A DNA stretch of 64,000 nucleotides, taken from positions 1,488,001 to 1,552,000 of the forward strand of contig NZ_LN868939.1 of NCBI RefSeq assembly GCF_001182745.1, given 5' to 3'. The notes below the pieces were generated by a model that was given only the letters and a program-made list of their open reading frames with translations, made no database searches and had not been told where the DNA came from. The stretch comes from Nocardia farcinica (GTDB taxonomy: Bacteria; Actinomycetota; Actinomycetes; Mycobacteriales; Mycobacteriaceae). This document shows, one piece after another, positions 1 to 51,799 of the stretch. Positions within the stretch are counted from its first letter, which is position 1. Each line of letters opens with the position of its first letter. A program made the translations under genes and the position numbers.

Positions 1-14478
<14,478 letters not shown>

Positions 14479-31990: not shown

Positions 31991-32641
31991 GTGCCGTATC
32001 GCAGAACCCCCGCCGTGCAGGCCAGGCTCGACGCCCAGGCCGGCCAGATCGTGCAGGCCGCGACCAGGGTGCTGTCGGAGGCGGGCTTCGCGGGACTGTC
32101 GATGGCGGCGGTCGCGGCCAATGCCGGCGTGGCCACCGGCACCGTCTACAAGCACTTCGCCGGCAAGGCCGAGCTGGTCACCGCCGTGTTCCGGGCCGTG
32201 GTCGCCCGCGAGGTGGACGCGGTCGCCGCCGCCGCGGCCGAGGGCGGCGCCGTCGAGCGGGTGGTCGCCGCGGTGGAGACCTTCGCCTGCCGCGCCCTGA
32301 AGAACCCGAAACTGGCCTACGTGCTGCTGGCCGAACCGGTCGACGCGGTGGTCGACGCCGAGCGCCTGCGCTTCCGCCGCGCCTTCGCCGACGCGTTCGC
32401 CGCCGCCGTGTCCGACGGCGTCGCCGCCGGCGAGCTTCCCGGCCAGGACGCCCGCACCACCGCCGCCGCCCTGGTCGGCGCGATCGGTGAGGTGCTCGTC
32501 GGCCCGCTGGCCGACGCCCCGCACAGCGAATCCGTCGTGCCCCAACTCGTCACCTTCGCCCGGCGCGCACTCGGTGTGCCGGAGCGGGCTCGCGCGGCCA
32601 TGACCGCGCCGGAAACAGGAGTGTCCGATGCAGACTCATGA
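31991..32641 (+). CDS. TetR family transcriptional regulator
   Basis: A 216-aa regulator with a clear N-terminal TetR helix-turn-helix (QIVQAATRVLSEAGFAGLSM, GVATGTVYKHFAGKAELV). The C-terminal helical part (RALKNPKLAYVLLAEPVD) belongs to a TetR group often found beside acyl-CoA dehydrogenases, as here. Start GTG 31991 directly abuts the operator. Its last codons overlap the dehydrogenase start by 14 bp, so they form one operon. The likely ligand is an acyl-CoA (inference). Confidence 0.92.
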   Translation: MPYRRTPAVQARLDAQAGQIVQAATRVLSEAGFAGLSMAAVAANAGVATGTVYKHFAGKAELVTAVFRAVVAREVDAVAAAAAEGGAVERVVAAVETFACRALKNPKLAYVLLAEPVDAVVDAERLRFRRAFADAFAAAVSDGVAAGELPGQDARTTAAALVGAIGEVLVGPLADAPHSESVVPQLVTFARRALGVPERARAAMTAPETGVSDADS

Positions 32642-34250
32642 GGTCTTCAACCAGGTCCCGAACATCGTGCCCTTCGACGTGTCGCGCAATCCCGCGCTGC
32701 TCGAGGGCCTGCACCGCGAGGGCGCGGGCTGGGCCGAGGCCGAGGTGCGCGAGCTCGGCGCGCTCGCCGGCGGTGAGCGCGCGCAGGACTGGGGCAGGCT
32801 CGCCAACGAGTACCCGCCGGTCCTGCACACCCACGACCGCTACGGCCATCGCATCGACGAAGTCGAATTCCACCCGTACTGGCACGAACTCATGACGGTC
32901 GCCGTCGGCCACGGCCTGCACGCCGCCCCCTGGCTCGACGAACGCCCCGGCGCGCACGTCGCCCGCGCCGCCAAGTTCTACACCTGGGGCGCCGCCGACG
33001 CCGGTCACATGTGTCCCATCTCGATGACCTACGCCGCCGTGCCCGCCCTGCGCCACAACCCCGAGCTGGCCGCCAAGTACGAGCCGCTGCTCGGCTCCCG
33101 CGTCTACGATTTCGGCCTGCGCGAGCCCACCGGCAAGGCCGGACTCATCGCGGGCATGTCGATGACGGAGAAGCAGGGCGGCTCCGACGTGCGCGCCAAC
33201 ACCACCACCGCGACACCGCAGCCCGACGGCACCTACCGCATCGTCGGCCACAAGTGGTTCACCTCCGCGCCGATGTCGGACATGTTCCTCACCCTGGCGC
33301 AAGCCCCCGGCGGCCTGTCCTGCTTCCTGCTGCCGCGCGTGCTGCCCGACGGCACCCGCAACCCCATCCGCATCCAGCGCCTCAAGGACAAGCTCGGCAA
33401 CAAGTCCAACGCCTCGTCGGAGATCGAATACGAGAACGCCACCGGCTGGCTCGTCGGCCCCGAAGGCCACGGCGTGAAGACCATCATCGAAATGGTCAAC
33501 ATGACCCGCCTGGACTGCGTCATCGGTTCGGCCACCAACATGCGCCAGGCGACCGTCCACGCCGTGCACCACGCCCGGCACCGGGAAGCGTTCGGCGCCA
33601 AGCTGATCGACCAGCCCGCCATGCGCAACGTCCTCGCCGACCTGGTGATCGAATCCGACGCCGCCACCACCGTCATGATACGGCTGGCCGGCGCCACCGA
33701 TCGCGCCGCCCACGACCCCGCCGAAGCGAACCTGCGCCGCATCGCCCTCGCCGTCACCAAGTACTGGGTGTGCAAGCGCGCCCCCATGCTCACCGCCGAA
33801 GCCCTCGAATGCCTCGGCGGCAACGGCTACGCCGAAGAATCCGGCATGCCCCGGCTCTACCGCGAGTCCCCGCTGATGTCGATCTGGGAAGGCTCCGGCA
33901 ACGTCGCCGCCCTCGACGCCCTGCGCGCCATGGGTCGCCAACCCGACACCGTCGCGGCCTACTTCGACGAGGTGAACAAGTCCCGCGGTGACAACCCCCG
34001 CCTCGACGACGCCATCGACCGCGTCGGCAAGGAACTCGCCGACCTGTCCGACATCGAATACCGGGCCCGGCGCGTGGTCGAACTCATGGCCCTGGTCCTG
34101 CAAGGCGCCCAGCTGGTGCGGCACGGACACCGCGCGGTGGCCGACGCCTTCTGCGCCACCCGATTGGGGGATGACTGGGGAATCGCGTTCGGGACATTGC
34201 CGACCGGGGTCGACACCGAATCGATCATCGAGCGCGCGTTCGTGGAGTGA
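32628..34250 (+). CDS. AidB-like acyl-CoA dehydrogenase
   Basis: A 540-aa flavoprotein of the AidB/acyl-CoA dehydrogenase family, longer than standard 380-aa enzymes. Seen: the N-terminal AidB-type extension (HEVFNQVPNIVPFDVSRNPA), MSMTEKQGGSDVRANTT (FAD/substrate loop), IVGHKWFTSAPMSD, MTRLDCVIGSATNMRQA, REAFGAKLIDQPAMRNVLAD, ECLGGNGYAEESGMPRLYRE and SIWEGSGNVAALD. Start ATG 32628 overlaps the TetR gene. AidB homologues are linked to alkylation stress in E. coli, but here the context suggests acyl-CoA metabolism. The last 311 bp, ending at the stop codon, are repeated at 45621-45931. Confidence 0.95.
   Translation: MQTHEVFNQVPNIVPFDVSRNPALLEGLHREGAGWAEAEVRELGALAGGERAQDWGRLANEYPPVLHTHDRYGHRIDEVEFHPYWHELMTVAVGHGLHAAPWLDERPGAHVARAAKFYTWGAADAGHMCPISMTYAAVPALRHNPELAAKYEPLLGSRVYDFGLREPTGKAGLIAGMSMTEKQGGSDVRANTTTATPQPDGTYRIVGHKWFTSAPMSDMFLTLAQAPGGLSCFLLPRVLPDGTRNPIRIQRLKDKLGNKSNASSEIEYENATGWLVGPEGHGVKTIIEMVNMTRLDCVIGSATNMRQATVHAVHHARHREAFGAKLIDQPAMRNVLADLVIESDAATTVMIRLAGATDRAAHDPAEANLRRIALAVTKYWVCKRAPMLTAEALECLGGNGYAEESGMPRLYRESPLMSIWEGSGNVAALDALRAMGRQPDTVAAYFDEVNKSRGDNPRLDDAIDRVGKELADLSDIEYRARRVVELMALVLQGAQLVRHGHRAVADAFCATRLGDDWGIAFGTLPTGVDTESIIERAFVE
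33940..34250 (+). repeat. 311-bp direct repeat, copy 1 (3' end of acyl-CoA dehydrogenase)
   Basis: Identical by eye to 45621-45931 except for one base (33989 T, C in copy 2). Similarity stops exactly after the stop codon, and upstream at the AACCC of codon 438 or so. It is the left boundary of an 11,681-bp unit. Confidence 0.95.
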
Positions 34251-34328
34251 CTCGTCCTCGAGCCAACGCCGCAACCGGTGGCCTGCGCTACGGCCGGCAT
34301 GTGGCAAGTGTCGGCCGGATGGTGTCGT

Positions 34329-34745
34329 TCACGCCAGATCAGCGAATTCGGCGGCGATCTCGGGGCGATTCGTGAAATCGCGGATGTAGTGCAGCGCGCT
34401 GCGCAAACCGAAATAGGACTGGATGGTCTCAGCGGTCGGGTCGGCCGCCGCAGCGCGGAGCACTCGTATCGAGGCGATCGGATCGCCGCTCGCCGCCGTG
34501 GCAGCCCAGTATATCGCGGGCATGCCGTTCGCGGTCACGGCATCCACGTCGGCGCCGGCGTCGAGCAGGAGTGCGATCGCGGCGGGATCCGCTTCCTGGG
34601 CGGCGAAATGCAGTGGTGTCCAACCCTCCCCATCCCGCACGTCGACATCCTCGCCGGCCTGCAGGAGCTGGGTGATGAGCGTGAGGTCACCGTCCCGGGC
34701 GGCGTAATGCAGGCCGACGCGCCCGAACTCATCGCGGTGCCTCAT
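34329..34745 (-). CDS. Ankyrin-repeat protein
   Basis: A 138-aa protein with about three ankyrin repeats: FGRVGLHYAARDGDLTLITQ, GWTPLHFAAQEADPAAIALL and NGMPAIYWAATAASGDPIAS, each starting with the usual turn and helix pattern. These repeats bind other proteins. Start ATG 34745. It is the last gene of a minus-strand cassette, 52 bp after a 59-aa gene. No enzymatic domain is seen, so a partner or immunity-like role is possible but unproven. Confidence 0.88.
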   Translation of the reverse strand: MRHRDEFGRVGLHYAARDGDLTLITQLLQAGEDVDVRDGEGWTPLHFAAQEADPAAIALLLDAGADVDAVTANGMPAIYWAATAASGDPIASIRVLRAAAADPTAETIQSYFGLRSALHYIRDFTNRPEIAAEFADLA

Positions 34746-34797
34746 CAGCTTGCTCCGTTCTTGGTCCGTTCACCGGTTGCGGTACGGGTCTCCGGGC

Positions 34798-34977
34798 CTA
34801 TTCGCGCAGAAACCGTTCGACGTCGCTGAGCGAAGCGCACTCGAACAGGCGCTCGCCATCGTAGATGTCGACCAGCGCCCACCCGCCACCCGCCGGATAG
34901 GCGATGAGTTGGTATCCGCCGCGGCGGGCACGGGCCATCAGGAAGCGCAGCCGAGCGGCGCGCGGGTGGTCGCTCAT
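34798..34977 (-). CDS. Small hypothetical protein (59 aa)
   Basis: A 59-aa protein: basic N-terminus (RAARLRFLMARARRGG), then a short beta-rich segment (YQLIAYPAGGGWALVDIYDG) and an acidic end (LSDVERFLRE). Start ATG 34977 overlaps the stop of the preceding 53-aa gene as ATGA, supporting both as real genes in one operon. No family recognised. Confidence 0.65.
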   Translation of the reverse strand: MSDHPRAARLRFLMARARRGGYQLIAYPAGGGWALVDIYDGERLFECASLSDVERFLRE

Positions 34978-35135
34978 TCCGCCCTGCCCCGGCCCGGGTC
35001 GTCGCGCCATTGCCGCAGTGCCGTGGCGAAACGGGTCAGCACGACCAGGTCGGGGGCGGGGGGAGTCGTCACGGGATGTTTCGGCGGGGGGATGCGGGAT
35101 TGTCCGGGCTCGCGCCGCGGCAGGTCGTTGAGCAC
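34974..35135 (-). CDS. Small hypothetical protein (53 aa)
   Basis: A 53-aa proline-rich protein (VLNDLPRREPGQSRIPP, then LVVLTRFATALRQWRDD). Start GTG 35135 is preferred because GGAGG sits 8 bases upstream; GTG 35180 is an alternative adding 15 residues. It overlaps the next gene by ATGA and follows the DUF4254 gene by 60 bp. No function can be read. Confidence 0.6.
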   Translation of the reverse strand: MLNDLPRREPGQSRIPPPKHPVTTPPAPDLVVLTRFATALRQWRDDPGRGRAE

Positions 35136-35195
35136 GTTGCAGCCTCCGGCGATGGAGTCGATGGTCGATGGCCGTGTCACTCGTGGGTGGTCGGT

Positions 35196-35666
35196 TCAGG
35201 TCTGGTCGGATCCGATCAGGCGAAGGTTGCCGAGGTCGGGGACCCGGCGCACGCCGGTGCTGACCTCGTGGGAGAGATCCGCATAGCCGACGGCCAGTTC
35301 CGCCAACCGGCGCCAGGCGTAGTGACGTTCGACCGGTGCATCGTCGAACACCAGCGCACTGCGCGCCGACGAGCTGTAGCGGGCGAGGCGATCGATCACG
35401 GTGCCGACCGATTCGGTGTGCAGGTGCGCGCCGCCGCGGGCGGGTGGGAGTTGGCAGGCCAGCCAGCGGTCGATCCCACGGATCAATGCCATTCGACGGT
35501 GGAGTAGGTCCCTGGCATCGACTGCCCGCTCCGCCGTGGCGTGGAGACGTGCCAGCTCGAGCGCCATCCGCAGCACCGGATGCTCGCTGCCGAGGCGGCC
35601 ACTGCACGCCTCGAGGACGAGTTCCTTGGGCGGGAGCGGATCAGCGCGGGGATCAGGCCGGCTCAC
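35196..35666 (-). CDS. DUF4254-like protein
   Basis: A 156-aa mostly helical protein. The core HPVLRMALELARLHATAE, RRMALIRGIDRWLACQLP and HLHTESVGTVIDRLARYS resembles the nocardial DUF4254 family as I remember it. The function of that family is unknown. Start ATG 35666 overlaps the previous gene's stop as ATGA. It belongs to the minus-strand cassette starting at 35944. Confidence 0.7.
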   Translation of the reverse strand: MSRPDPRADPLPPKELVLEACSGRLGSEHPVLRMALELARLHATAERAVDARDLLHRRMALIRGIDRWLACQLPPARGGAHLHTESVGTVIDRLARYSSSARSALVFDDAPVERHYAWRRLAELAVGYADLSHEVSTGVRRVPDLGNLRLIGSDQT

Positions 35667-35944
35667 CGTGCACGCCCCTCGCCGTCACGGAAGAAGCATG
35701 CCGGCCATCCGGGTTCGGTCAGGGCGAAGTGCACGGCCTCGCGCGCCGTCAAACCGAGCGCATGTGCGAGTTCTGCTGCACTCCAGGTGAATTCGGCGAG
35801 CTGGACTGCGGAGACGGCCTGCTCGAGCGTAAGGGTGCGGCCCGGTAGGAACGACACCACCCACCGACCTCCACCAACCGCTCTCGCTTGATGCTCGCAA
35901 CGATCGCTGAGAATCCGCGAGCTGTTGACCACCTGCACAGACAT
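35663..35944 (-). CDS. Hypothetical protein (93 aa), first gene of small-gene cassette
   Basis: A 93-aa protein, beta-rich at the start (VQVVNSSRILS, GGGRWVVSFLPGRTLTLEQA) and then helical (FTWSAAELAHALGLTAREA), the latter vaguely like a helix-turn-helix. Start ATG 35944 with GAAGGGGGA upstream. Divergent from the HTH-DUF5753 gene. Overlaps the DUF4254 gene by 4 bp. No family recognised. Confidence 0.65.
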   Translation of the reverse strand: MSVQVVNSSRILSDRCEHQARAVGGGRWVVSFLPGRTLTLEQAVSAVQLAEFTWSAAELAHALGLTAREAVHFALTEPGWPACFFRDGEGRAR

Positions 35945-36102
35945 GGTTCTCGTTCCCCCTTCGAATGAACGATGTGGGCGAGCCGGCGGTACCGCTTGTC
36001 AGTATCGTATACTAGACAACGTTATAAGTTGTCGTTAATCGCCGAGCTGGCTGTGCTGGTACTGTTGCGCCCGCTTGTCTGTACTCGCGAAAGAGGATCG
36101 GC
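35945..36102. promoter_or_regulatory. Divergent promoter region with two inverted repeats
   Basis: An AT-rich island in high-GC DNA between the small-gene cassette (minus) and the HTH gene (plus). It has AGTAT-cgt-ATACT at 36001-36013 and GACAAC-7 nt-GTTGTC at 36015-36033, back to back. TATACT (36008) and TATAAG (36023) are candidate -10 boxes. These are probable binding sites for the adjacent HTH protein, by position. Confidence 0.55.
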
Positions 36103-36972
36103 ATGGCTCCGTCATCCCCGACTGTTGCTCGTTGGGAACTCGCTGTCCGCTTCAAGCAGCGGCTCGACGAGCTGAGCATCAAGGTCCCGGCCCTGTGCAA
36201 GGCCATCGGGTTCACGCCCGCGTACTGGTCGCACGTCGTGACCGGCCGCAGCGTCCTCAGTGAAGAGAAGATGCACAAGCTGATCGAGCACCTGGACTTT
36301 CCGGCGGATCAGCGAGCGGAACTGCTTGCTCTGCGCGCCGAGGCAAAGGAACCCGGCTGGTGGAATAAGTACGCGGCACTCTTCGGCGACGAACTGCTGC
36401 GTCTCTACGGTCTCGAACACGGCGCTCAGCGGATTCGAGTTCACGAAGGCGTCATCGTGCCTGCGATGCTGCAGGCTCCCGACTACATGCGAGCTCTGAT
36501 GACGTCGCCGTATGGTGTGCGGTCGGCGGTGGAGGCCGACAAGTACGTGGAAGCGCGAATGCGCCGCCAGAAACGGTTGGACGGCCCCGACGCTGTTCAC
36601 TTCACGGCGATGCTCACCGAAGCGGTCCTACTTCAGCATCCGTGGGGGCCGAAAGTGCAGATCGCCCAGCTTCGGCACATCAAGTCTTTGATCGAAGCGC
36701 ATCCGGACACCGTCGACGTCCGGGTCATCCCGCTGGGTGCCCCGGAATGTGCGGCGCTGAGCGGCAACGTCTACCTGCTGGATTTCGAGAGCTGCTGGCT
36801 CCCTACCGTGGCGTGGTTCGAAAACGCGCTGTTCGGAGCACTCGTCGAAGACCCGGTTCAAGCCCGCAATCTCAACTATGTCTACAACAACGTCTTTGCG
36901 GCCATGCCGGACCAGGGGCGGTCTCTCGACCTGATCGACCAAGCGGTACGTACGCTAACATCGTTGGCATGA
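36103..36972 (+). CDS. HTH regulator with DUF5753 domain
   Basis: A 289-aa protein: an N-terminal Xre-type helix-turn-helix (VRFKQRLDELSIKVPALCKA, AYWSHVVTGRSVLSEEKMHK) and a DUF5753 domain from about residue 95 (HEGVIVPAMLQAPDYMRALM, RRQKRLDG, VRVIPLGAPECAALSGNVYL). Such proteins are common in Nocardia and Streptomyces as partners of DUF397 proteins in developmental or antibiotic regulation. Start ATG 36103 with AAAGAGGA upstream. It overlaps the DUF397 gene as ATGA. The first helix-turn-helix is less canonical than usual. Confidence 0.9.
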   Translation: MAPSSPTVARWELAVRFKQRLDELSIKVPALCKAIGFTPAYWSHVVTGRSVLSEEKMHKLIEHLDFPADQRAELLALRAEAKEPGWWNKYAALFGDELLRLYGLEHGAQRIRVHEGVIVPAMLQAPDYMRALMTSPYGVRSAVEADKYVEARMRRQKRLDGPDAVHFTAMLTEAVLLQHPWGPKVQIAQLRHIKSLIEAHPDTVDVRVIPLGAPECAALSGNVYLLDFESCWLPTVAWFENALFGALVEDPVQARNLNYVYNNVFAAMPDQGRSLDLIDQAVRTLTSLA

Positions 36973-37325
36973 GTACCGGCACGACCAGCACGTGGTTCAA
37001 GTCCAGCTTCTCGAAGGAAGCCGCCAACTGCGTGGAGGTTCGGTTTTCCGGGGATGCGGTGCTCATCCGCGACAGCAAGTATCTGCGGGATCCGGGGAAC
37101 GATCCGGCGCGGCAGCCGGTCATCGAGATTTCGGCGATGCGGTGGGGTGCGTTTCTCGCCTATGCGGTCGATCCGGGCGTCGCGCCGGAGCCTGGGCTGC
37201 CGGTGATCGTGCGGGGTGCGCGCGGTGTGGTGGTGTCGCTCGGCGGGGTATCGCTGCATTTCACCGATGCCGAGTGGATTGCTTTCACCTCGGGCATTGC
37301 GGTGGGGGAGTTCGCCGCGGCGTAG
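36969..37325 (+). CDS. DUF397 protein with two DUF397-like halves
   Basis: A 118-aa protein. Residues 8-65 are a DUF397 domain (WFKSSFSKEAANCVEVRFSG, VLIRDSK). Residues 75-118 look like a second partial copy, ending FTDAEWIAFTSGIAVGEF, the usual DUF397 closing motif. Start ATG 36969 overlaps the HTH gene. It is presumably the small partner that binds or modulates the HTH protein. The gene ends next to a hairpin facing metE. Confidence 0.88.
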   Translation: MSTGTTSTWFKSSFSKEAANCVEVRFSGDAVLIRDSKYLRDPGNDPARQPVIEISAMRWGAFLAYAVDPGVAPEPGLPVIVRGARGVVVSLGGVSLHFTDAEWIAFTSGIAVGEFAAA

Positions 37326-37375
37326 CGGCGGGCGGTGCGGTTGCAGCGCGCCCGCCGCTGGCCCCTGGCCAGCGG
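37325..37375. terminator. Overlapping hairpins between DUF397 and metE
   Basis: Two mutually exclusive stems lie between the convergent genes: GCGGCGGGCG with CGCCCGCCGC (37325-37334 / 37349-37358), and CCGCTGGCC-cct-GGCCAGCGG (37355-37375). Probably a bidirectional terminator; there is no U tract. Confidence 0.55.
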
Positions 37376-37441
37376 TTGCGCAGCTGTTCGATGCCGACTC
37401 CGGTGGATCCGAGTGCCGGCACCCGAACAGCTACGATCGGA

Positions 37442-39706
37442 TCAACGCAGGGCTGCCGCCGCGGCGACGAGGTTGCGTAGCGAGGCTTCCACCTCAACCG
37501 GGCCACGGGTCTTCAAGCCGCAGTCGGGATTGACCCACAACCGTTCGGCCGGAACCGCTTTCAGCGCTGACTGTAGCGACGCGACGATCTCCTCGATCGA
37601 AGGCACGCGCGGCGAGTGGATGTCGTAGACGCCAGGTCCTACGCCGAGATCGAAACCGGCGGCGTTGAGATCGTCGAGGACTTCCATGTGAGAGCGAGCC
37701 GCTTCGATGGAGGTGACGTCAGCATCGAGCGCGGCGATCGCGCCGATGACTTCACCGAACTCGGAGTAGCACAGGTGAGTGTGGATCTGCGTGGTGTCGG
37801 CGACGCCGGCGGTCGCCAGGCGGAACGAATCGACCGACCACGCCAGATAGGCCGGTCGCTCGGCCGCGCGCAGTGGAAGCAGTTCGCGCAGCGCGGGTTC
37901 GTCGACCTGAATGATGCGGGCGCCGCCTGCTTCGAGGTCGGTGACTTCGTCGCGGATGGCGAGGGCGACCTGGCGAGCGGATTCGCCCAGGGGCTGGTCG
38001 TCGCGGACGAAAGACCACGCGAGGATGGTGACCGGGCCGGTGAGCATGCCCTTGACCGGCTTGCTGGTGCGTGACTGCGCGTAGCCGATCCAGTCGGTCG
38101 TCATCGGGGTCGGGCGGGTGACATCACCGAAGAGGATCGGCGGGCGCACGCAGCGCGTTCCGTAGGATTGCACCCACCCGTTGTCGGTCGTGGCGAAGCC
38201 GTCGAGCAGCTCTGCGAAGTACTGGACCATGTCGTTGCGCTCGGGTTCGCCGTGGACGAGCACGTCCAGGCCCAGACGTTCCTGCAGCGCGATCACCTCG
38301 TCGATCTCCCTCCGCATACGGGCTACGTACTCGGCGTGGTCGATCTCGCTCTTGCGCAGTGCGGCGCGAGCCAGGCGGATCGTCGAGGTCTGCGGGAAGG
38401 AGCCGATGGTGGTGGTGGGCAGCAGCGGCAGGTCGAGGTGAGCACGCTGCTTGGCGCGACGTTCGTCGGCCGGTGCGCGTTCGAGGTCGGTGGGTGCCAG
38501 TGCCGCCAGACGTGCCCGGACGGTGGCGTTGTGCAGGCGCGGATCTGTGCGGCGGGACTCGGCGGCGTCGCGGGCGGCGCGCAGTTCGTCGGCGACGACG
38601 TCGGTGCCCTGGGTCAAAGCGGTGGCCAGCAGCCGGACTTCGTCGACCTTTTCGGCGCCGAAGGCGAGCCACGAACGCAGCCGGTCGTCGAGCGCGGTTT
38701 CCGGGGTCAGTGAGTAGGGAACGTGCAGCAGCGAGCAGGAGGTCGATACCGCGACCGAGGCTGCGCTGCCGAGCAGCGAGCCCAGGGTGCTCAGAGTGGC
38801 GTCGAGGTCGGTGCGCCAGACGTTGCGGCCATCGACCACGCCGGCCACCAGCAGCTTGTGGGTCAAGGCCGGGACCGAGGCCACCGCCTCGACGGTGGTG
38901 CCCGCGGTGAAGTCGAGCGCGACCGCGTCGACCGGCGTCGCCGCGATCTCGGCGAGTGCCGCGTCGGTGTGCCCGAAATAGGTGGCGATCAGGATCGCGG
39001 GCCGGTCGGTGCCCGAGGCGAGTTCGGTGTAGGTGGCGCGCACGGCGGCCAGTTCGGCGTCGGTGAGATCGGTGACCAGGATCGGCTCGTCGATCTGGAC
39101 CCAGGTGACACCCGCCGCCGCGAGCCGCGACAGCAGCTCGCGGTAGAGCGGGAGAAGCTCGGCGAGGCGGTCCAACGCGCCGCCTTCGGCGTGCTTGGAC
39201 AGTTTCAGGAAGGTCAGTGGCCCGATGACGACGGGCCGGGCCGGGATGCCGAGTTCATCGGCTTCGGCGAGTTCGGAGAACAGCTTCGCCGGGTTCAGTG
39301 AGAACTGCGTTCGGGCGTCGATCTCGGGAACGATGTAGTGGTAGTTGGTATCGAACCATTTCGTCATCTCGAGCGGGGCGATCGTGTCGGTGCCGCGGGC
39401 CGCGGCGAAGTAGCGATCGAGTGGATCGATGATTTCGGCGACGCGCGGAGGCAGCGCACCGAGCAGGACCGCGGTGTCGAGGACCTGGTCGTAGTAGGAA
39501 AAGGTGCCGACCGGGATGGAATCCAGCCCCGCGGCGGCGAGCAGGCCCAGGTGGGTATCGCGCAGTTCACGCGCGACGGTGTGCAGGTGCTCGGCGTCGG
39601 CCTTGCCGGCCCAGTAGGCCTCGATGGCGCGCTTGAGTTCCCGGTTCGGCCCGACGCGGGGCAGTCCGAGAACCGTGGCGGTGAAGGGGGTGGGCGAAAC
39701 AGCCAC
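37442..39706 (-). CDS. metE: Cobalamin-independent methionine synthase
   Basis: A 754-aa MetE, transferring a methyl group from methyl-tetrahydrofolate to homocysteine without B12. Seen: the N-terminal barrel ([36 protein letters not shown]), then the catalytic half ([57 protein letters not shown]). Zinc ligands are in [10 protein letters not shown] and [10 protein letters not shown]. Start GTG 39706 (VAVSPTPF) has GGAGA upstream. A cobalamin riboswitch precedes it, so expression should fall when B12 is plentiful. The length is normal for the family. Confidence 0.97.
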
Positions 39707-39889
39707 GTTGATCGTCTCCGGTGTAGATGCGGATGGCCATCGCCTGTCGTGCGCAGCGCCGAAATCCGACCGTGAGGTACGTGCGAGGCAAGCTCGCGCG
39801 CCCGTTTCCAGGGTCTCCTGGCGGGGCGGTGGAATATCGGTCCATGCGCCCAATCCTCGAGGCGGAGGCCGCCGGGCACGGCGTGTCCG

Positions 39890-40075
39890 GCACAGCGGGC
39901 AGGTCTTCGGACTCATGGGCACCGGCCTGATTCGGCCGACCTAGTGGCCGTCGCTTCCCAGGCAGGCGCCCAGTGCTCCATGACGGCGGTCGTTCCCACT
40001 CACCGCTGCGGGACAGTCCCGGATTCCCACCGGGTTCCCTCTCACCGGTCCGGTGTCCCGGGCCGGCTTCGACAC
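39890..40075 (-). ncRNA. Cobalamin riboswitch upstream of metE
   Basis: Read on the minus strand, the region contains GGGAACCCGGTGGGAATCC, then GGGACTGTCCCGCAGCGGTG, and near its 3' end GTCCGAAGACCTGCC, the B12-box equivalent. This order and spacing are characteristic of cobalamin riboswitches. It lies about 185 nt before the metE start. TAGAAT on the minus strand at 40135-40140 is a candidate -10. Exact ends are approximate. Confidence 0.93.
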
Positions 40076-40140
40076 GATCACTGGAGTTCGGGGCTCCGAC
40101 TCTGCACGGTGAACGTGAACCAGCTGCGGTCACCATTCTA

Positions 40141-40428
40141 GTCCAGCCCGACCGCGTGCTGAGGCCTACCGGTAGTCGGCCCGCCGATCGCTGCACCGAT
40201 CAGCCGGTTCTGCTCCTCGGCGGACCGGTGGGGAGCCGGGGGCGGGTAAGGCTGGATCGAGCGGACGGGGTGGCGATCGGGGGCGCGGGCATCTGCGGTG
40301 GCAGCGAGGGTCCCCAGCCGATGCCCGCAAGACCGAGGATTCGCCCGCTGTGCCGGGCGCGTCGCGGCTGGTGGTCGGCGAACCCGCTCGCGAGCGCGCC
40401 ACCGCGCGCAGGCGATCGGGGTGGACGG
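40141..40428. other. Non-coding gap between prpR and metE leader
   Basis: 288 bp upstream of the metE promoter and downstream of the prpR stop. No convincing gene, hairpin or repeat was seen apart from the metE promoter edge. Confidence 0.5.
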
Positions 40429-41865
40429 TCAGCGCCGGGTTTCAGTGGGTGAGTCGGCGGGGGCGTAAGGGATGTTCGCAGCGAGGTTGTCGTCGACGCG
40501 GATGGCCCGCCCGAGCTGTGGGAAGGCTCGTTGTGCGCAGTTCGGGCGTTCGCACACCTTGCAGCCCGCGCCGATCGGGACCGCGGTGGGGTCATCGTGG
40601 AGCGGGAGTCCTTGGGAGTACACCAGTTTCTCGGCGTAGGCGAGGTCGCAGCCGAGTCCGATCGCGAAATTGCGCTTGGCGGCGAGGAATCCGGGAGTGT
40701 TCTCGTCGGTGGTGCGGGCCAGCCACAGGTACTTGCGGCCGTCGGGCATCTGGGCGATCTGGGTGCGGATTCGCCCCGGGGTTGCGAAGGCGTCGTGGAC
40801 GACCCACAGCGGGCAGCTGCCGCCGACCCGGGAGAAGTGGAACGCGGTGGCGGACTGGCGTTTGGAGATGTTGCCGGCCCGGTCGATACGCACGAAGAAG
40901 AACGGCACACCGCGCTGTCCGGTCCGCTGCAATGTCGACAGGCGGTGACAAACGGTCTCGAAACCGACCTCGAACATCGATGACAGCAACTCGATGTCGT
41001 AGCGCAGATCTTCGGCGGCATTACGGAACCTGTTGTAGGGCAGGATGAGCGCTCCGGCGAAATAGTTGGCCAGGCCGATGCGCAACAGGTCGCGTGATGC
41101 GGTGGGCAGATTCGACATGGCGGTGATCGCGTCGATGGTGTGGTTGTGCGTCAGGAACGCCAGCTGGGTCGCGAGCTGGAATGCGCGCTGACCGGCTGAG
41201 AGTCGTCGTGCGAGCGCGATGTGGCGCGCTGCGGGATCGTAGACACGCTTGGGGCCGGGATCGGTCGGATCGTCGGAGCGAATCGTGACGGTGATGCCGT
41301 GGCGCTCGTGCAACAGGCGGGTCAGCTGCAGGTCCAACCCGCCGATGCTGAGCCGATTGTCCTGAAACATCGATTCCGCGGCGGAGTCGAGCTCGGGTAT
41401 GTGGTTGCGATGGTCGTAGAAGAAGTCGCGCACGTCCTCGTACGGAGTCACCGCCGTGGCACTCGCGGCTGGAGCCTCGAGACCAGCGGAGATCTGCTCG
41501 AGCTGCTGCGTCGCGCTGCGCAGTCTGCGATGCAAGTTCACCAGCAGATGCGCGGCGGCCGGGACCCGCGTGGTGAGATCCTCGAGTTCGGCATTGCTGA
41601 TGCCCGCGGCATCGGGATCCTCGATGAACACCTCATGGAGATCGGCCAGCAGTCGTGCGTCGGTGTCGGTAGCGAAGAAGCCCATGTCCAGATCGAAGGC
41701 GGCATTGAGTTTGAGCAGCACCTGGACGGTCAGCGGACGCTGATCGTTCTCGAGCTGATTGACATAGCTCACCGATAGCCCGAGCAGTTTTGCCAGCGCG
41801 GTCTGCGACAGCCCGCGCTGGTCGCGCAGTGCGCGCAGCCGCGCGCCCGCGAACATCTTCTGCAT
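40429..41865 (-). CDS. prpR: PrpR/RamB-type regulator of the methylcitrate cycle
   Basis: A 478-aa regulator. N-terminal Xre helix-turn-helix (LRALRDQRGLSQTALAKLLG, SVSYVNQLENDQRPLT). The middle is an IrrE/ImmA-like region (HITVTIRS..., AARHIALARRLSAGQRAFQL, ATQLAFLTHN). The C-terminal short-chain-acyl-CoA domain has several conserved cysteines (GGSCPLWVVHDAF, GAGCKVCERPNCAQRAFPQL). In mycobacteria the related PrpR activates prpDC when propionyl-CoA builds up. Here it is divergent from prpDBC, supporting that role. Start ATG 41865. RamB, the acetate regulator, is the main alternative identity. Confidence 0.93.
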   Translation of the reverse strand: MQKMFAGARLRALRDQRGLSQTALAKLLGLSVSYVNQLENDQRPLTVQVLLKLNAAFDLDMGFFATDTDARLLADLHEVFIEDPDAAGISNAELEDLTTRVPAAAHLLVNLHRRLRSATQQLEQISAGLEAPAASATAVTPYEDVRDFFYDHRNHIPELDSAAESMFQDNRLSIGGLDLQLTRLLHERHGITVTIRSDDPTDPGPKRVYDPAARHIALARRLSAGQRAFQLATQLAFLTHNHTIDAITAMSNLPTASRDLLRIGLANYFAGALILPYNRFRNAAEDLRYDIELLSSMFEVGFETVCHRLSTLQRTGQRGVPFFFVRIDRAGNISKRQSATAFHFSRVGGSCPLWVVHDAFATPGRIRTQIAQMPDGRKYLWLARTTDENTPGFLAAKRNFAIGLGCDLAYAEKLVYSQGLPLHDDPTAVPIGAGCKVCERPNCAQRAFPQLGRAIRVDDNLAANIPYAPADSPTETRR

Positions 41866-42020
41866 GACCCGAATCTATCACGCGCACCATTCGCAACTTT
41901 CACAGATTTGCCGGCGATCTTCCACATATTTCGGCATCTGCGAGGCATTTTGCCCGCAAATCGAACTGTGTAACGTGCGAACGGTATCGGTGAATATTTG
42001 ACGTCCGGGAGGCCAGCGCT
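41866..42020. promoter_or_regulatory. prpR/prpD divergent promoter with PrpR-type site
   Basis: The 155-bp gap has TTTGC-cc-GCAAA at 41949-41960, a perfect inverted repeat similar to the known RamB/PrpR core (TTTGCAAA-like), and a further TTTGCC at about 41907. GGGAGG at 42008 is the prpD ribosome binding site. Confidence 0.6.
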
Positions 42021-43523
42021 GTGAAGCACCATCTTGTCCGTACCCACCGCTCTGCCGAGGACTTCCCTCGTGAGGAGCACTTGGCGTGGCGGATCGCCGA
42101 GGTAGCCACCGATGCCGTGGAGGTTCCGGCCGACACCGAGGAGATGATTGTCAACCGCATCATCGACAACGCCTCGGTCGCCGCGGCCTCGATCACCCGC
42201 CGACCGGTCGCCAACGCTCGCGCCCAAGCCTTGGCCCACACCTACCGCCCGGGCGCGACCGTATTCGGCGTGCCGGGCCGGTTCTCCCCGGAATGGGCCG
42301 CCTGGGCCAACGGAGTCGCGGTCCGCGAACTCGACTTCCACGACACCTTCCTGGCCGCGGAGTACTCACACCCGGGCGACAACATCGCTTCGATTCTCGC
42401 CGTCGCCCAACACTCCGGTCGCAATGGCGCGGACCTGATCCGTGGCCTGGCCACCGGCTACGAGATCCAGGTCGACCTGGTACGTGCGATCTGCCTGCAT
42501 GAGCACAAGATCGACCACGTCGCCCACCTCGGCCCCTCGGCCGCCGCAGGTATCGGCACTCTGCTCGGTCTCGACGCCGAGACCATCTACCAGGCGATCG
42601 GACAGGCTCTGCACACCACGACCGCTACACGCCAGTCCCGCAAGGGTGAAATCTCGAGCTGGAAGGCCTACGCGCCTGCCTTCGCCGGAAAGATGGCCGT
42701 CGAGGCGGTCGATCGCGCGATGCGCGGTGAGGGCGCCCCCTCGCCGATCTGGGAGGGCGAAGACGGTGTCATCGCGTGGCTGCTCGGCGGCCCGAATGCC
42801 GAGTACTCGGTGCCGTTGCCGGCGCCGGGCGAGGCCAAGCGCGGCATCCTCGACACCTACACCAAGGAGCACTCGGCCGAGTACCAGAGCCAAGCGCCGA
42901 TCGACCTGGCGTTCCGCCTGCGCGAGCGAGTCGGTGATCTGGATCAGATCGCGACCGTCGTGCTGCACACCAGCCACCACACGCATCACGTGATCGGCAC
43001 CGGCTCGAACGATCCGCAGAAGTTCGATCCCCAGGCCTCGCGCGAAACCCTCGATCACTCGCTCATGTATATTTTTGCGGTTGCCCTGCAGGACGGAACC
43101 TGGCACCACGAGCGCTCCTACGCTCCCGAGCGCGCACAGCGGCCCGACACGATCGAGCTGTGGCGCAAGATCTCCACTGCCGAGGATCCGGAGTGGACTC
43201 GTCGCTACCACTCGACCGACCCGAACGAGAAAGCCTTCGGCGCCCGGGCCGAAATCACCTTGAAGAGCGGCGAAGTGATCGTCGACGAGCTGGCTGTCGC
43301 CGATGCGCATCCGTTGGGCGCCCGTCCGTTCACGCGGGAGCAGTATATCGCGAAGTTCCGCACCCTAGCCGAAGGCGTAATCGAGCAGGCCGAGCAGGAT
43401 CGGTTCCTCGACGTCGCCCAGCGAACCCCGGAGCTGACGGCCGAGGAGCTGGGTCAGCTGAACTTCACGGTCTCCGAAGAGGTCTTGGCCCGCGCGCCGA
43501 AGCTGCCGAAGGGGCTGTTCTGA
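42021..43523 (+). CDS. prpD: 2-methylcitrate dehydratase
   Basis: A 500-aa MmgE/PrpD family protein that dehydrates 2-methylcitrate in propionate breakdown. Seen: [80 protein letters not shown] and [20 protein letters not shown]. Start GTG 42021 with GGGAGG 9 bases upstream. It is the first gene of prpD-prpB-prpC, whose stops and starts touch (TGATG), so the three are one operon under PrpR. Confidence 0.97.
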
Positions 43524-44437
43524 TGACCGGCCTGCTGGCAGCGTCGACCTCGGTCTCCGACAAGCGTCTTGCATTCCGGGCGGGCCTGGCATCAGACCGG
43601 ATCCAGCGCATCCCGGGCGCGTTCAGCCCGTTGGTGGCCAGGCTGATCCAGGAGATCGGCTTCGAAGGCGTCTACGTCTCCGGCGCGGTGGTCTCCGCCG
43701 ACCTCGCCCTGCCCGATATCGGGCTCACCACGCTCAGCGAGGTCACCGAGCGCGGCCGCCAGATCGCCCGCGTCACCGATCTACCGGTGCTCATCGACGC
43801 CGACACCGGCTTCGGCGAACCGATGAGCGCCGCACGCACCGTCACCTTCCTCGAGGACGCAGGCATCGCCGGAGCCCACTTCGAGGACCAGGTCAACCCG
43901 AAGAGGTGTGGGCATCTCGACGGCAAGACCGTAGTCCCCGTCGAGGAAATGGTGCGGCGCCTGCGGGCAGCGGTCGCGGCTCGCCGCGATCCGAGCTTCG
44001 TCATCTGCGCTCGCACCGATGCCGCGGGCATCGAAGGCATCGACGCGGCGATCGAGCGGGCACAGGCCTACGTCGCGGCGGGAGCGGATCTGATCTTCAC
44101 CGAAGCCCTGCACACCCCGGCCGACTTCGAGAAGTTCCGCGCCGCGGTGGACATCCCGCTGCTGGCGAACATGACCGAGTTCGGCAAGTCCGAGCTGATT
44201 CCGGCCGCCACGCTGGAGAAGATCGGCTACAACGCCGTGATCTACCCGGTATCGACGCTGCGGTTGGCGATATTCGCCGCCGAGGCCGGCCTGCGGGAGA
44301 TCTTCGAGCAGGGCACCCAGTCCGGTCTGCTGGATCGGATGCAACATCGCAGCCGGCTCTACGAGCTGCTGCAGTACGAGCGCTACAACGAATTCGATTC
44401 CGCCATCTTCAATTTCACCCTCGGAAGGAATCAGTGA
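43523..44437 (+). CDS. prpB: 2-methylisocitrate lyase
   Basis: A 304-aa isocitrate-lyase superfamily enzyme that splits 2-methylisocitrate into pyruvate and succinate. Active-site signature VNPKRCGHLDGK with Cys129. Other blocks: GVYVSGAVVSADLALPDIGL, PVLIDADTGFGEP (Mg-binding acids), ICARTDAAGIEG, and YPVSTLRLAIFAAE. Start ATG 43523 overlaps the prpD stop by one base, and prpC follows the same way. In many mycobacteria this gene is absent and isocitrate lyase substitutes, so its presence makes the cycle complete. Confidence 0.97.
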   Translation: MTGLLAASTSVSDKRLAFRAGLASDRIQRIPGAFSPLVARLIQEIGFEGVYVSGAVVSADLALPDIGLTTLSEVTERGRQIARVTDLPVLIDADTGFGEPMSAARTVTFLEDAGIAGAHFEDQVNPKRCGHLDGKTVVPVEEMVRRLRAAVAARRDPSFVICARTDAAGIEGIDAAIERAQAYVAAGADLIFTEALHTPADFEKFRAAVDIPLLANMTEFGKSELIPAATLEKIGYNAVIYPVSTLRLAIFAAEAGLREIFEQGTQSGLLDRMQHRSRLYELLQYERYNEFDSAIFNFTLGRNQ

Positions 44438-45561
44438 TGACCGACATCGCTGTGCCCACCATCTACAAAGGCCTCGCCGGCGTCGTCGTCGACACCACCT
44501 CGATCTCCCAGGTGGTCCCCGAGACGAACTCGCTGACCTACCGCGGCTATCCCGTACAGGACCTGGCGGCGATCTGCTCCTTCGAACAGGTCGCCTACCT
44601 GCTCTGGCACGGCGAGCTGCCCACAGATTCCCAACTGGCCCTATTCACCCAACGGGAACGGGCGGCACGACGGGCTAATCGTTCGTTGCTGTCGTTGATC
44701 GCGAAGCTGCCCGACAACTGCCATCCGATGGATGTCGTGCGCACCGCGATCAGCTATCTCGGCGCCGAGGACCCTGCCGAGGAAGACAATTCCTCCAAGG
44801 CCAACCTGGCCAAGTCGCTACAGATGCTGGCCGTGCTACCCACGATTGTGGCTGCCGATCACCGTCGCCGCCGTGGCCTGGACCCCATCGAGCCACACTC
44901 CCATCTCGGGTTCGCCGAGAATTTCCTGAACATGTGCTTCGGGAGAGTTCCAGCGCCGGAGCTTGTGAAGGCATTCGAGGTTTCGCTGATCCTCTACGCC
45001 GAGCATGGTTTCAACGCTTCCACCTTCGCCGCTCGGGTCGTGACCTCGACCCTGGCCGATATCTACAGTGCGGTCACCGCGGCCATCGGCGCGTTGAAGG
45101 GTCCGTTGCACGGTGGTGCCAACGAGGCGGTCATGCGTGACATGCTCGAGATCGGCGATCCCGCGCGGGCCGAGCAGTGGTTACGAAACAAGCTGGCGAA
45201 CAAGGAAAAGGTGATGGGCTTCGGGCACCGGGTCTACAAGAACGGTGACTCCCGCGTGCCGACAATGAAGAACGCGTTGCTGGATATAGCCGCGGCCACC
45301 GGCGGTGGCAAGTGGGTCCAGATGTACGAGATCCTCGAGCACACCATGATCGAGGCCACCGGCATCAAGCCGAACCTCGATTTCCCGACCGGCCCCGCGT
45401 ATTTCCTGCTCGGCTTCGATATCGAGGTGTTCACCCCGATTTTCGTGATGAGCCGCATCACTGGCTGGACCGCTCACGTCATCGAACAAGGTGCGGCCAA
45501 CGCGCTCATCCGGCCGCTCAGCGAGTACGCTGGCGTGCCGCAGCGCGCCGTCGGCACCTGA
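44437..45561 (+). CDS. prpC: 2-methylcitrate synthase
   Basis: A 374-aa citrate-synthase family enzyme joining propionyl-CoA and oxaloacetate. Seen: SLTYRGYPVQDLAAICSFEQ, LKGPLHGGANEAVM with an active-site His, VMGFGHRVYKNGDSRVPTMK with the second His and substrate-binding Arg, and ILEHTMIEATGIKPNLDFPT. Start ATG 44437 with GGAAGG upstream. The gene ends only 60 bp before the second repeat copy, so it sits at the right edge of the inserted unit. Citrate synthase activity cannot be excluded, but the operon points to methylcitrate. Confidence 0.96.
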   Translation: MTDIAVPTIYKGLAGVVVDTTSISQVVPETNSLTYRGYPVQDLAAICSFEQVAYLLWHGELPTDSQLALFTQRERAARRANRSLLSLIAKLPDNCHPMDVVRTAISYLGAEDPAEEDNSSKANLAKSLQMLAVLPTIVAADHRRRRGLDPIEPHSHLGFAENFLNMCFGRVPAPELVKAFEVSLILYAEHGFNASTFAARVVTSTLADIYSAVTAAIGALKGPLHGGANEAVMRDMLEIGDPARAEQWLRNKLANKEKVMGFGHRVYKNGDSRVPTMKNALLDIAAATGGGKWVQMYEILEHTMIEATGIKPNLDFPTGPAYFLLGFDIEVFTPIFVMSRITGWTAHVIEQGAANALIRPLSEYAGVPQRAVGT

Positions 45562-45620
45562 GCGGCATCCCGACCGTACTCACCGGTGCGGGCCGTACCC
45601 GTTCCTCGGCGCGGCACGTC

Positions 45621-45931
45621 AACCCGACACCGTCGCGGCCTACTTCGACGAGGTGAACAAGTCCCGCGGCGACAACCCCCGCCTCGACGACGCCATCGAC
45701 CGCGTCGGCAAGGAACTCGCCGACCTGTCCGACATCGAATACCGGGCCCGGCGCGTGGTCGAACTCATGGCCCTGGTCCTGCAAGGCGCCCAGCTGGTGC
45801 GGCACGGACACCGCGCGGTGGCCGACGCCTTCTGCGCCACCCGATTGGGGGATGACTGGGGAATCGCGTTCGGGACATTGCCGACCGGGGTCGACACCGA
45901 ATCGATCATCGAGCGCGCGTTCGTGGAGTGA
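45621..45931 (+). pseudogene. Truncated acyl-CoA dehydrogenase 3' remnant; direct repeat, copy 2
   Basis: An in-frame copy of the last 103 residues of the dehydrogenase at 32628-34250 (QPDTVAAYFDEVNKSRGD to IIERAFVE), with a single silent difference by eye. It has no flavin or active-site regions and no start signal, so it cannot make a working enzyme. It marks the right end of the 11.7-kb unit, and divergence begins right after its stop codon. Confidence 0.93.
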
Positions 45932-46019: not shown

Positions 46020-46421
46020 TCAGTTGATTTCGTCGCCCTGGGCGGTCAGCGTGCGGCTGGACTCCTCGTCTACTGCCTGGAGTTGACCGATCGCGGCCAG
46101 GTAGGCGTCGCGCATGGTGGTGACGATCTCGATGTGCTGGTCGATGCGGGCGAGGGCGTTGTCGTTGGGATCGTGGGGTGCGCCGCCGGTCGCCTTCTGC
46201 TCGAACTTCACTCGCAGTTCGTTGGCGGAAGGGAGCCCGCCGTAGCCGGAGAGACGGTCCAGCTGCTGGGCATCGCGCCTGATGTACAACAGTTGTTGCC
46301 GGAGTGCCTCGCAACGGTCGTGTAAGGCTTGGCCGATCTCGGTGTCGAGCCTGAACTCGCCGTTGATGCCCTGTTCTTTGAGAGTTCGCCACTGCTGCAA
46401 ATGTGATTCGGTGTCCGCCAT
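46020..46421 (-). CDS. Hypothetical helical protein, paired with DUF3558 lipoprotein
   Basis: A 133-aa, mostly helical protein (SHLQQWRTLKEQGINGEF, QALHDRCEALRQQLLYIRRD, ALARIDQHIEIVTTMRDAYL). The two long helices and genomic pairing recall small secreted ESX-related proteins of mycolata, but no WXG motif is present. Start ATG 46421. It follows the lipoprotein gene by 21 bp on the same strand. Function unknown. Confidence 0.65.
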   Translation of the reverse strand: MADTESHLQQWRTLKEQGINGEFRLDTEIGQALHDRCEALRQQLLYIRRDAQQLDRLSGYGGLPSANELRVKFEQKATGGAPHDPNDNALARIDQHIEIVTTMRDAYLAAIGQLQAVDEESSRTLTAQGDEIN

Positions 46422-46442
46422 GTCGTCCCCCGTAAGACTCGG

Positions 46443-46991
46443 TTATTTCGGTAGGTGTGGTTCGAGTGTGATCGCGTGTTCGATCGCCAGATCGCACGAT
46501 TCTCGAATGGGCCTGCTGTCGAACCATCCGACCGCAATCTCGAACATTCCTTGTTCGGCAGGCAGGCTGACGTAGCAGACGTCACCACCTTCGATCTTGT
46601 TCGTGTTCACGAGTCCCTGCCGACCCCCGATGGTTATCTCGCGAATGATCTCGACATTGGGATTCTTGCGAGTGTCCTCGATGGTGTGGCTGGTCGACAG
46701 CAGGTCCATGCGGTAGCTGAAGACCGACGGTTCCCACCCGCAGATCCGCCACGACGAGACCTTGTCCGGGTTGACGATGTTGCGTTCCGTGGACGGGTCG
46801 AGTCCGAGCTCGATGAGCCATTCGTCGGGGATGTCGGTGCAGGGGTCGAGCAGGTTGTCCATCTCAGGCTCTGCCGGGGTGGGGGTGCCCGGTCGGGTGC
46901 CGCCGAGGTCGACTGTTCCGCAGCCGGTGACCAGACCGAGAAGCGTGGCAACGGCAATTACGGTGCGGGCGACGGTCGCCGTGATGTGCAT
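46443..46991 (-). CDS. DUF3558-type lipoprotein
   Basis: A 182-aa predicted lipoprotein: signal peptide (VARTVIAVATLLGLVTGC) with the lipobox LVTGC giving acylated Cys24. The mature part starts with a Pro/Thr-rich linker and has DPCTDIPDEWLIELGLDP, WRICGWEPS and CDLAIEHAITLEPHLPK, typical of the mycolata DUF3558 family. Exposed on the outer face of the membrane. Start ATG 46991 with GGGAGGGG upstream. Function unknown. Confidence 0.88.
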   Translation of the reverse strand: MHITATVARTVIAVATLLGLVTGCGTVDLGGTRPGTPTPAEPEMDNLLDPCTDIPDEWLIELGLDPSTERNIVNPDKVSSWRICGWEPSVFSYRMDLLSTSHTIEDTRKNPNVEIIREITIGGRQGLVNTNKIEGGDVCYVSLPAEQGMFEIAVGWFDSRPIRESCDLAIEHAITLEPHLPK

Positions 46992-47238: not shown

Positions 47239-47916
47239 GTGGGCGACGACGAGATCTCACCGGCTGCGCTGGCACGCGATGTGTCGGCCCGAGCGCAGCG
47301 GCTCGACCGCCGCTACCTGCTCGGCATCGCCGGCCCACCCGGCGCGGGGAAATCGACTCTCGCGAAAGCCCTGTGCCACGAGCTGAACGAGCTGGCCGGT
47401 GCGAACATCGCCGCCGAAGCCCCCATGGACGGCTACCACCTCCCCAACGTCCGCCTGCGGGAAATGGGCAGGCTGCCGAACAAGGGCGAACCGGACACCT
47501 TCGACAGCGAAGGCTACGTGGCGAACCTGGAGCGCCTGCGGGACACCTCGCTCGGCCACGAAGTCACATGGCCGACCTTCGACCGTGCCCTCGACGAGCC
47601 CACTCCCGCGGGCGTCGTGTTCACGACCGAACGCATCGCCGTCACCGAGGGCAACTACCTCCTCGTGGACGATCCCGCGCTCGGCGCCTGGCACGAGGTC
47701 CGCAACCTCCTCGACGCCTGCTGGTATCTCGACGCCGACCCGAGCGTCCTCACCCCCCGGCTGATCCGGCGCCACCTCGACGGCGGGCGCTCGCCCGCGG
47801 CCGCGCACCGCAAGGTGACCGACAGCGACCTGCGCAACGCCCGTCTCGTCGCCGGGACCCGGCGGCGCGCCGATCTGGTGCTCCGGGAACGCGACGGCCG
47901 CTACGTCCGCGCCTGA
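47239..47916 (+). CDS. P-loop nucleoside/nucleotide kinase family protein
   Basis: A 225-aa protein with a Walker A motif (GIAGPPGAGKST, residues 29-40). Further blocks EAPMDGYHLPNVRLREMGRL, TFDSEGYVANLERLRD, WPTFDRALDEPTPAG and ERIAVTEGNYLLVDDP follow the uridine kinase/phosphoribulokinase/PanK pattern. It phosphorylates a small molecule with ATP; the substrate (nucleoside, sugar or pantothenate-like) is not clear. Start GTG 47239. Stand-alone, 57 bp before the potassium channel gene. Confidence 0.85.
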   Translation: MGDDEISPAALARDVSARAQRLDRRYLLGIAGPPGAGKSTLAKALCHELNELAGANIAAEAPMDGYHLPNVRLREMGRLPNKGEPDTFDSEGYVANLERLRDTSLGHEVTWPTFDRALDEPTPAGVVFTTERIAVTEGNYLLVDDPALGAWHEVRNLLDACWYLDADPSVLTPRLIRRHLDGGRSPAAAHRKVTDSDLRNARLVAGTRRRADLVLRERDGRYVRA

Positions 47917-47973
47917 CCGGCGGAACCGGCGCGTACACCACCGATCGGTGCCGGAAAGGCAGATCATGAACGA

Positions 47974-48498: not shown

Positions 48499-48501
48499 CG
48501 G

Positions 48502-50139
<1,638 letters not shown>

Positions 50140-50234
50140 GTCCGCGAGGGTACTCACCGGCGCGGCGGCGTGCACGGGCAACGCAGCTCGCCGACCTGCC
50201 TGCCGCGGCCGCCGCTGCTGTCTACGCTGGCGAC

Positions 50235-51686: not shown

Positions 51687-51799
51687 GCGGCTACCCCGCC
51701 CGTGAGCGGTGATCTGGCGATGAGCAGCGGTCCCCCCGCGCGGAACGTCGCGCAGTCCGGTTGCCGGCACTGCGCGGCGTTCGTCCCCCCTCGGTCGGA

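Follow-up and report, generated by a model that had tools for sequence, protein, structure and literature searches.

A methylcitrate and metE gene block between long direct repeats of an acyl-CoA dehydrogenase gene end in Nocardia farcinica: a probable capture without recognisable recombination genes

In Nocardia farcinica, a block of metabolic and accessory genes lies directly behind an intact acyl-CoA dehydrogenase gene, and the last 315 bp of that gene appear a second time at the far end of the block. The locus was analysed in a 64,000-nucleotide stretch of contig NZ_LN868939.1 (assembly GCF_001182745.1, positions 1,488,001 to 1,552,000; hereafter the window, with coordinates counted from its first base). 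The target gene, here called ACAD, encodes a 540-amino acid (aa) AidB-like acyl-CoA dehydrogenase (32628..34250, plus strand; Pfam AidB_N 1.4e-56 plus Acyl-CoA_dh domains), and the block, here called X, spans 11,366 bp (34251..45616; GC 66.3%). The layout, a whole gene followed by an insert, a doubled gene end and the native flank, is that of a 315-bp target duplication. X is an insertion relative to the genus, its gene trees and composition conflict with those of its host, and it contains no recognisable recombination genes. We propose, with a probability of about 0.6, that X was captured behind ACAD in a non-site-specific manner, with a long target duplication.

Results

Base-by-base comparison matches 33936..34250 (plus strand; codons 437-540 and the stop of ACAD) to 45617..45931 (plus strand; an ACAD tail fragment whose reading frame is open through to the stop) over 315 bp with two mismatches, an identity of 99.4%. 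An earlier reading made from the sequence alone (the sequence-only reading) had described a 311-bp repeat with one difference, which proves to be the inner part of this match: the core pair, 33940-34250 and 45621-45931, contains a single differing base (T at 33989, C at 45670), and the second mismatch lies just outside it at 33938/45619. The two copies part at the base directly after the TGA stop of ACAD, as that reading had also stated. Both differences are synonymous and fall at third codon positions (CGC in the left copy and CGT in the right at 33936-33938; GGT and GGC, respectively, at 33987-33989). A match of this length and identity cannot be due to chance. Seven direct-repeat pairs with a length of at least 100 bp and an identity of at least 85% were listed in a self-comparison of 464 kb that includes the window; the ACAD-tail pair leads, at 99.4%, followed by a local tandem (96.9%, 130 bp) whose copies lie 77 bp apart. 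No third copy of the tail was found when the own genome was searched with the repeat stretch.

These properties make it highly improbable that the second tail is an assembly error, whether a contig-end overlap or a chimera, which the sequence-only reading had named as the main alternative: two sites distinguish the copies, the genome is 100% complete in 5 contigs, of which this one is 2.66 Mb long, and no comparable repeat occurs in the 464 kb. The two variable codons do not decide which copy is older, because the nearest relatives are mixed at both (CGC GGC, CGT GGC, CGT GGT and CGC GGG). Across 82 aligned rows of relative loci (two genomes are counted twice, a few rows are non-Nocardia, and 8 lack the full first codon), the right-copy codons are commoner (CGT 48, GGC 63) and the left-copy codons rarer (CGC 18, GGT 11).

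An ACAD match is present in 149 of 150 genus genomes, our own included, and a few of these have only a weaker, paralogue-like match. To the 80 named loci available (74 from Nocardia and 6 from other actinobacteria) were added stretches from the genus genomes, and we compiled 142 Nocardia loci: the 74 named ones minus L003 and L007, which equal genomes G062 and G099, plus 67 genus-genome stretches and G062, G063 and G099. After 12 identical sequences were dropped, 130 loci with distinct ACAD sequences were compared, with our own locus outside the set; in 116 of them the downstream stretch examined reached 9,990 bases or more, and in 8 it was below 5,000. The common gene order among the matches listed is 29098+, 29794-, 31119-, 32015+, ACAD, 47239+, 47974+, 48502-, 50325+, 51800- and 52378+, with some inversions and losses. 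The last six of these are the native right-flank genes of our window (47239..54906), and one or more of them stand behind ACAD in 115 of the 130 loci. The intervening gap in those 115 is below 500 bp in 36, 500-3000 bp in 50 and at least 3000 bp in 29, although insertion need not account for all of the big gaps, some of which may have arisen when the first flank genes were lost or inverted. No right-flank gene was found in the other 15 loci, in some of which the contig or stretch ended.

Within the stretches examined, metE, scfR and prp genes were found behind ACAD in none of the 130 loci; an XRE gene occurs there in one (L068). Self-comparison of the 130 loci revealed no block bounded by a long tail repeat, nor did a search of the 150 genus genomes with the tail, in which the best four candidates per genome were scored, find a long tail repeat elsewhere. 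Since right-flank genes follow ACAD in 115 of 130 loci and neither the methylcitrate cluster nor a long second tail does so in any, 34251-45616 is most simply read as an insertion at an accessory hotspot, the gap behind ACAD being, on comparison of these loci, a variable region to which X appears to have been added. The sequence-only reading had envisaged an insertion beside the dehydrogenase, and relative to the genus this holds: the 3' end of the gene is intact, the interior differs in composition and phylogeny, and none of the 130 relative loci, let alone most of them, shares the arrangement. It had also suggested looking for relatives in which ACAD is followed directly by the sequence from 45932 onward; in 115 of the 130 loci flank genes do follow, after a very variable gap.

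One relative carries a trace of a second tail. Nocardia aurantia RB56 (L073:11743-11825) has a decayed copy of 81-84 bp at 81% identity (E 9e-16), about 130 bp behind ACAD. Other tail self-matches in the 130 loci were 16-50 bp long with E from 6e-5 to 9e-3 (the strongest 44 bp, in L004) and were taken for chance.

Gene order supports the sequence from 45932 onward as the native flank. Two small genes there (46020..46991, minus strand; 133 aa and a 182-aa DUF3558 protein) are 82-83% identical in DNA to counterparts in G063 and G099, where the pair keeps its order further downstream of ACAD. The best matches to the tail, at 84-87%, come from G062, G063, G099 and N. farcinica 21131357 (L027), and in these nearest relatives the gap behind ACAD is either large (11,963 bp in G062 and 14,816 bp in G063) or extends past the end of the stretch examined. 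All four carry a Ser/Thr kinase gene behind ACAD (L027:2602-4206, L120:11185-12975 and L118:4607-6313 among them; identified by Pfam in two of the four). Against our own genome this kinase gives 24 matches, of which the best-scoring is 35% identical and none exceeds 48%, and its orthologue thus seems to be absent. Gene order suggests that the kinase region was lost before X arrived or together with it.

At its right end X joins ACAD codon 437 without visible homology. Similarity past prpC reaches the start of the tail in one of six relatives' clusters compared (G050, L127; BLAST to 45599, gapped alignment to about 45615) and fades earlier in the other five. On the left, X starts at the ACAD stop, a point around which resemblance to other species tends to be lost. 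Recombination between two alleles of the hotspot would explain a boundary exactly at the stop, and so would a tail-carrying element. The ends of X show no terminal inverted repeats (score 20, against a shuffled maximum of 30).

As one alternative, the repeat would be a merodiploid scar, left by a Campbell-type single crossover with a circular molecule or by homologous exchange with a strain in which X already adjoined ACAD. A near-identical stretch of 315 bp gives homologous recombination ample length to act on; the two differences, both synonymous, are what alleles of one species would show; and alignments to relatives stop near the ACAD stop. Merodiploids arising through recombination with partly repeated donor DNA are described in passages of PMC3784515. 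This route, however, requires a circle or strain with the ACAD tail already joined to X, and none is seen in the 130 loci; nor do the codons settle the matter, given that the right copy has the commoner ones and the nearest relatives are mixed. We consider it unlikely, bearing in mind that our estimates for it and for non-site-specific capture partly overlap, the two differing only in the use of a homologous end.

No mobility gene is recognisable in X. As the sequence-only reading had noted, no integrase is visible: tyrosine recombinases (PF00589) have 17 matches elsewhere in the own genome and none in the window. Recombinase and transposase domains are absent from the X open reading frames (ORFs) scanned by Pfam, several antisense or overlapping ORFs lying outside the scan; general Pfam scans of the X ORFs likewise gave no serine recombinase, with no search aimed at these enzymes. 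No tRNA was found in the window. The XRE, DUF397, ankyrin and metE genes of X have relatives in PHROGs, and scfR has one weak PHROGs match to a transposition protein (1e-3) that covers the HTH part only. Phage records gave no DNA match to 34200-37441, the only part of X compared with them. Ku is present in the genome.

These results bear on a second possibility, that X is or was a site-specific integrative element that uses the 3' end of ACAD as its attachment (att) site and brings in a substitute tail, with an integrase now lost or acting in trans. Such an element would leave the target gene whole and stop its repeat exactly at the stop codon, as seen here; the decayed tail in N. aurantia fits it, a trans-acting enzyme could be supplied by the 17 PF00589 matches found elsewhere in the own genome, and the PHROGs relatives make a phage-like carrier conceivable. 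Yet the window lacks a PF00589 match, the compared part of X has no match in phage records, a repeat of 315 bp at 99.4% is atypical, no relative locus has a block bounded by a long tail, and the metabolic cluster sits at other places in relatives. Integrases resembling three ORFs of the own genome were also absent from 292 gap ORFs, a weak test in which one seed may have been in the wrong frame. The 91 representative gap proteins scanned with Pfam and PHROGs could likewise include integrases, because the listings comprise the first 25 of 136 and of 53 families. We regard this possibility, too, as improbable. Separately, identical integrase-domain scores on two contigs of G000 (C1:4376-4897 and C3:5810-6331, one near a contig start) mark either a repeated transposon-like gene or a contig overlap.

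The contents of X fall into an accessory cassette and a metabolic module. From the left, the cassette comprises a 138-aa ankyrin-repeat protein (34329..34745, minus strand; Pfam Ank_4 4.5e-16), a 59-aa small protein (34798..34977, minus; 67-70% translated matches in L132, L140, L141 and L160, no Pfam match), a 156-aa DUF4254-like protein (35196..35666, minus; Pfam 1.1e-08), a 93-aa ORF with no family match (35663..35944, minus), an XRE-family regulator with HTH_31 and DUF5753 domain matches (36103..36972, plus) and a DUF397 protein (36969..37325, plus; Pfam 9.5e-17). Parts of this left cassette, 45-70% identical at the protein level, are also grouped in G047, G048 and G137, whose prp genes lie on other contigs. 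The metabolic module begins with metE, encoding cobalamin-independent methionine synthase (37442..39706, minus; Pfam Meth_synt_2 2.4e-150), with a cobalamin riboswitch upstream (39881..40082, minus; Rfam RF00174, 86.1 bits), and continues with scfR, for a short-chain fatty acyl-CoA regulator of the HTH_3, Peptidase_M78 and ScfRs architecture (40429..41865, minus; Pfam ScfRs 1.6e-69). Then follow prpD, 2-methylcitrate dehydratase (42021..43523, plus; 500 aa if translation starts at GTG 42021, 468 aa if it starts at 42117; the genome has no second copy), prpB of the methylisocitrate lyase family (PEP_mutase; 43523..44437, plus; 9.1e-47) and prpC of the citrate/2-methylcitrate synthase family (44434..45561, plus; Pfam Citrate_synt 1.1e-127). 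These identifications agree with the regulators, metE and methylcitrate operon of the sequence-only reading.

The module itself sits at other places in relatives, and metE adjoins scfR-prpDBC in three of the six clusters compared (G006, G063 and G062), so this arrangement is not new. Outside X, the own genome encodes another MetE, 52% identical, and has a MetH domain. Near metE in G006, G063 and G062, the region around our metE riboswitch (39881-40082) has an additional match in inverted orientation (L126:5449-5647; L128:4051-4203); in our locus Rfam finds one riboswitch. The cluster of a Rhodococcus plasmid described below has an extra gene of the methionine synthase II family. From these two observations, a B12-controlled gene may have been lost from our own cluster.

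Composition and phylogeny set X apart from its surroundings. Mean GC content at third codon positions (GC3) is 0.82 in nine X genes against 0.92 in 34 other genes of the window (p=5e-5), leaving out a large synthetase gene, 15388-15765 and 16720-18225 (GC3 0.95, 0.79 and 0.87). Because the native accessory genes at 46020 and 46443 are equally low (0.81 and 0.78), low GC3 marks accessory genes generally. The gaps at 35951-36102 and 41866-42116 have 55.3% and 57.4% GC against 72.3% and 70.1% in the flanks, in line with the AT-richer promoter gaps of the sequence-only reading, whose suggested comparison of composition inside and outside the block is answered by the GC3 difference. In trees of seven taxa with a midpoint root, ACAD groups our genome with G062 and G063 (support 100/99), whereas the prpDBC and ScfR trees split it from them (100/100) and place it beside G006 and G050 (94/95 and 100/99). 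Phylogeny and composition thus both differ from those of the host, as in a genomic island.

The lower GC3, together with trees in conflict with that of ACAD, points to an origin of X probably in another Nocardia lineage and, less likely, elsewhere in the own genome. The closest prpDBC DNA, 85-86% identical, is that of G112, G095, G006 and G050; G062 and G063 reach 82-83%. Among the matches listed, no protein exceeds 96% for PrpD, a value reached by N. thailandica, or 91% for ACAD; the ACAD of N. thailandica NBRC 100428 is 90% identical to ours. Strain NBRC 100428 was considered as donor and ruled out, since G134, putatively this strain, gives only a weak prp match (3.1e-44); taken with the 96% PrpD, this means that other strains named N. 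thailandica must carry the cluster. Among plasmid records, 32 match X and none covers more than 80% of it; the best, on the 528-kb Rhodococcus plasmid NZ_CP142144.1 (408380-417448; metE, scfR and prp), is 76% identical over 66% of X.

That prpD is single-copy in the own genome, and that metE stands beside scfR-prpDBC in three of six clusters, would also suit a move of X within the genome from a former prp locus, or a simple insertion, with the tail patched separately by template switching. GC3 and the trees point instead to a source outside the nearest relatives, and two events would be required, which makes this history very unlikely.

Elsewhere in the window, 1-14478 is occupied by a large gene with 3.2-kb internal repeats (pieces 60-94% identical), probably a modular synthetase, and at 17480-17721, inside a gene, 27-30 bp units form a GC-rich tandem array that probably encodes low-complexity protein sequence.

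Discussion

We propose that X, which combines a B12-independent module (metE and scfR-prpDBC) with an accessory XRE cassette, derives from the chromosome or a plasmid of another Nocardia and was taken up in the variable gap behind ACAD. At least one end would have been joined by illegitimate recombination, or by one-sided homologous capture, and a break or copy tract extending from codon 437 to the stop would have doubled the last 315 bp of the gene. The left copy would then keep ACAD whole, and the right copy would be a left-over fragment on the native flank. The order of these steps, the enzymes, and a donor in another species are what we infer from the layout and the comparisons above.

This is, apparently, a recent event of a known kind that is found in none of the other genomes examined. 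Insertion with long target duplication was reportedly described in Helicobacter pylori by Nobusato et al. in 2000. In the portions of PMC1643837 and PMC3154945 that treat this pattern, inserted genes lie between long direct repeats of the target, as seen by comparing related genomes, and X shows the same: it is flanked by long direct repeats that form one sequence in uninserted relatives, in a comparison between species only, and its scanned ORFs contain no transposase or integrase. The inserts described there, in contrast, are often restriction-modification genes and the genomes are strains of one species, whereas ours is a metabolic block compared between species. In homology-facilitated illegitimate recombination, as outlined in a section of PMC2884548 that cites de Vries and Wackernagel (2002) and Meier and Wackernagel (2003), foreign DNA is likewise taken up, one extremity being joined through homology and the other completed illegitimately. 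That process is described there for naturally competent species; at the ACAD locus we see neither the donor nor the one-sided homology. A 10.2-kb methylcitrate island in Neisseria meningitidis similarly places prp genes between genes that are adjacent in relatives (PMC4441257, in part), in another organism and with other gene content; the text of that paper does not contain the phrase "direct repeat".

Elements that integrate into a protein gene and regenerate its 3' end, such as e14 and phage 21 in icd, resemble X in that the target gene end is restored and a displaced tail remains at the far end. Those elements carry an integrase and their tails are shorter and more diverged, att repeats usually being shorter and less identical than 315 bp at 99.4%. 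X regenerates the gene end and has no recognisable integrase in or beside it. Of the two mechanisms put forward by the sequence-only reading, a recombination scar therefore fits better than an element that regenerates its target, given the lack of a recombinase domain, the ordinary chromosomal content, the absence of another long tail repeat at the loci examined, and a repeat longer and more identical than is usual for att sites.

Several points weigh against our preferred reading of non-site-specific capture. One is the boundary of the repeat, which coincides exactly with the stop codon; a random break in the 88-bp spacer would fall there, by our own estimate, about once in 90 times, which is suggestive of a tail-carrying element or an allelic boundary. 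A duplication of 315 bp is long for end joining. The comparison with empty sites is between species only, and the decayed tail in N. aurantia hints at a recurrent site or an older event of like kind. Compared with the sequence behind ACAD in 129 loci, 34251-34328 and 45932-46019 match no better than shuffles do, so the choice of native flank is one that gene order alone makes. Finally, G134, putatively N. thailandica NBRC 100428, has just the weak prp match given above. More speculatively, and with little probability in our estimate, the ACAD 3' end could be a recurrent capture site in Nocardia, at which recombinase-free cargo is inserted by a host or trans-acting enzyme that regenerates the gene end and leaves tail scars such as ours and that of N. 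aurantia.

Capture of block X behind ACAD, as we propose it, would be a clear-cut case, apparently recent, in which a metabolic module entered a chromosome without recognisable mobility genes, a form of acquisition that in our view has been little explored in actinobacteria. Its 315-bp repeats predict that the block could be lost again by homologous recombination. The cargo couples two B12-independent routes, MetE for methionine and the methylcitrate cycle for propionate; since the genome has a second MetE and a MetH domain elsewhere, it is the prp genes that would be a real gain.

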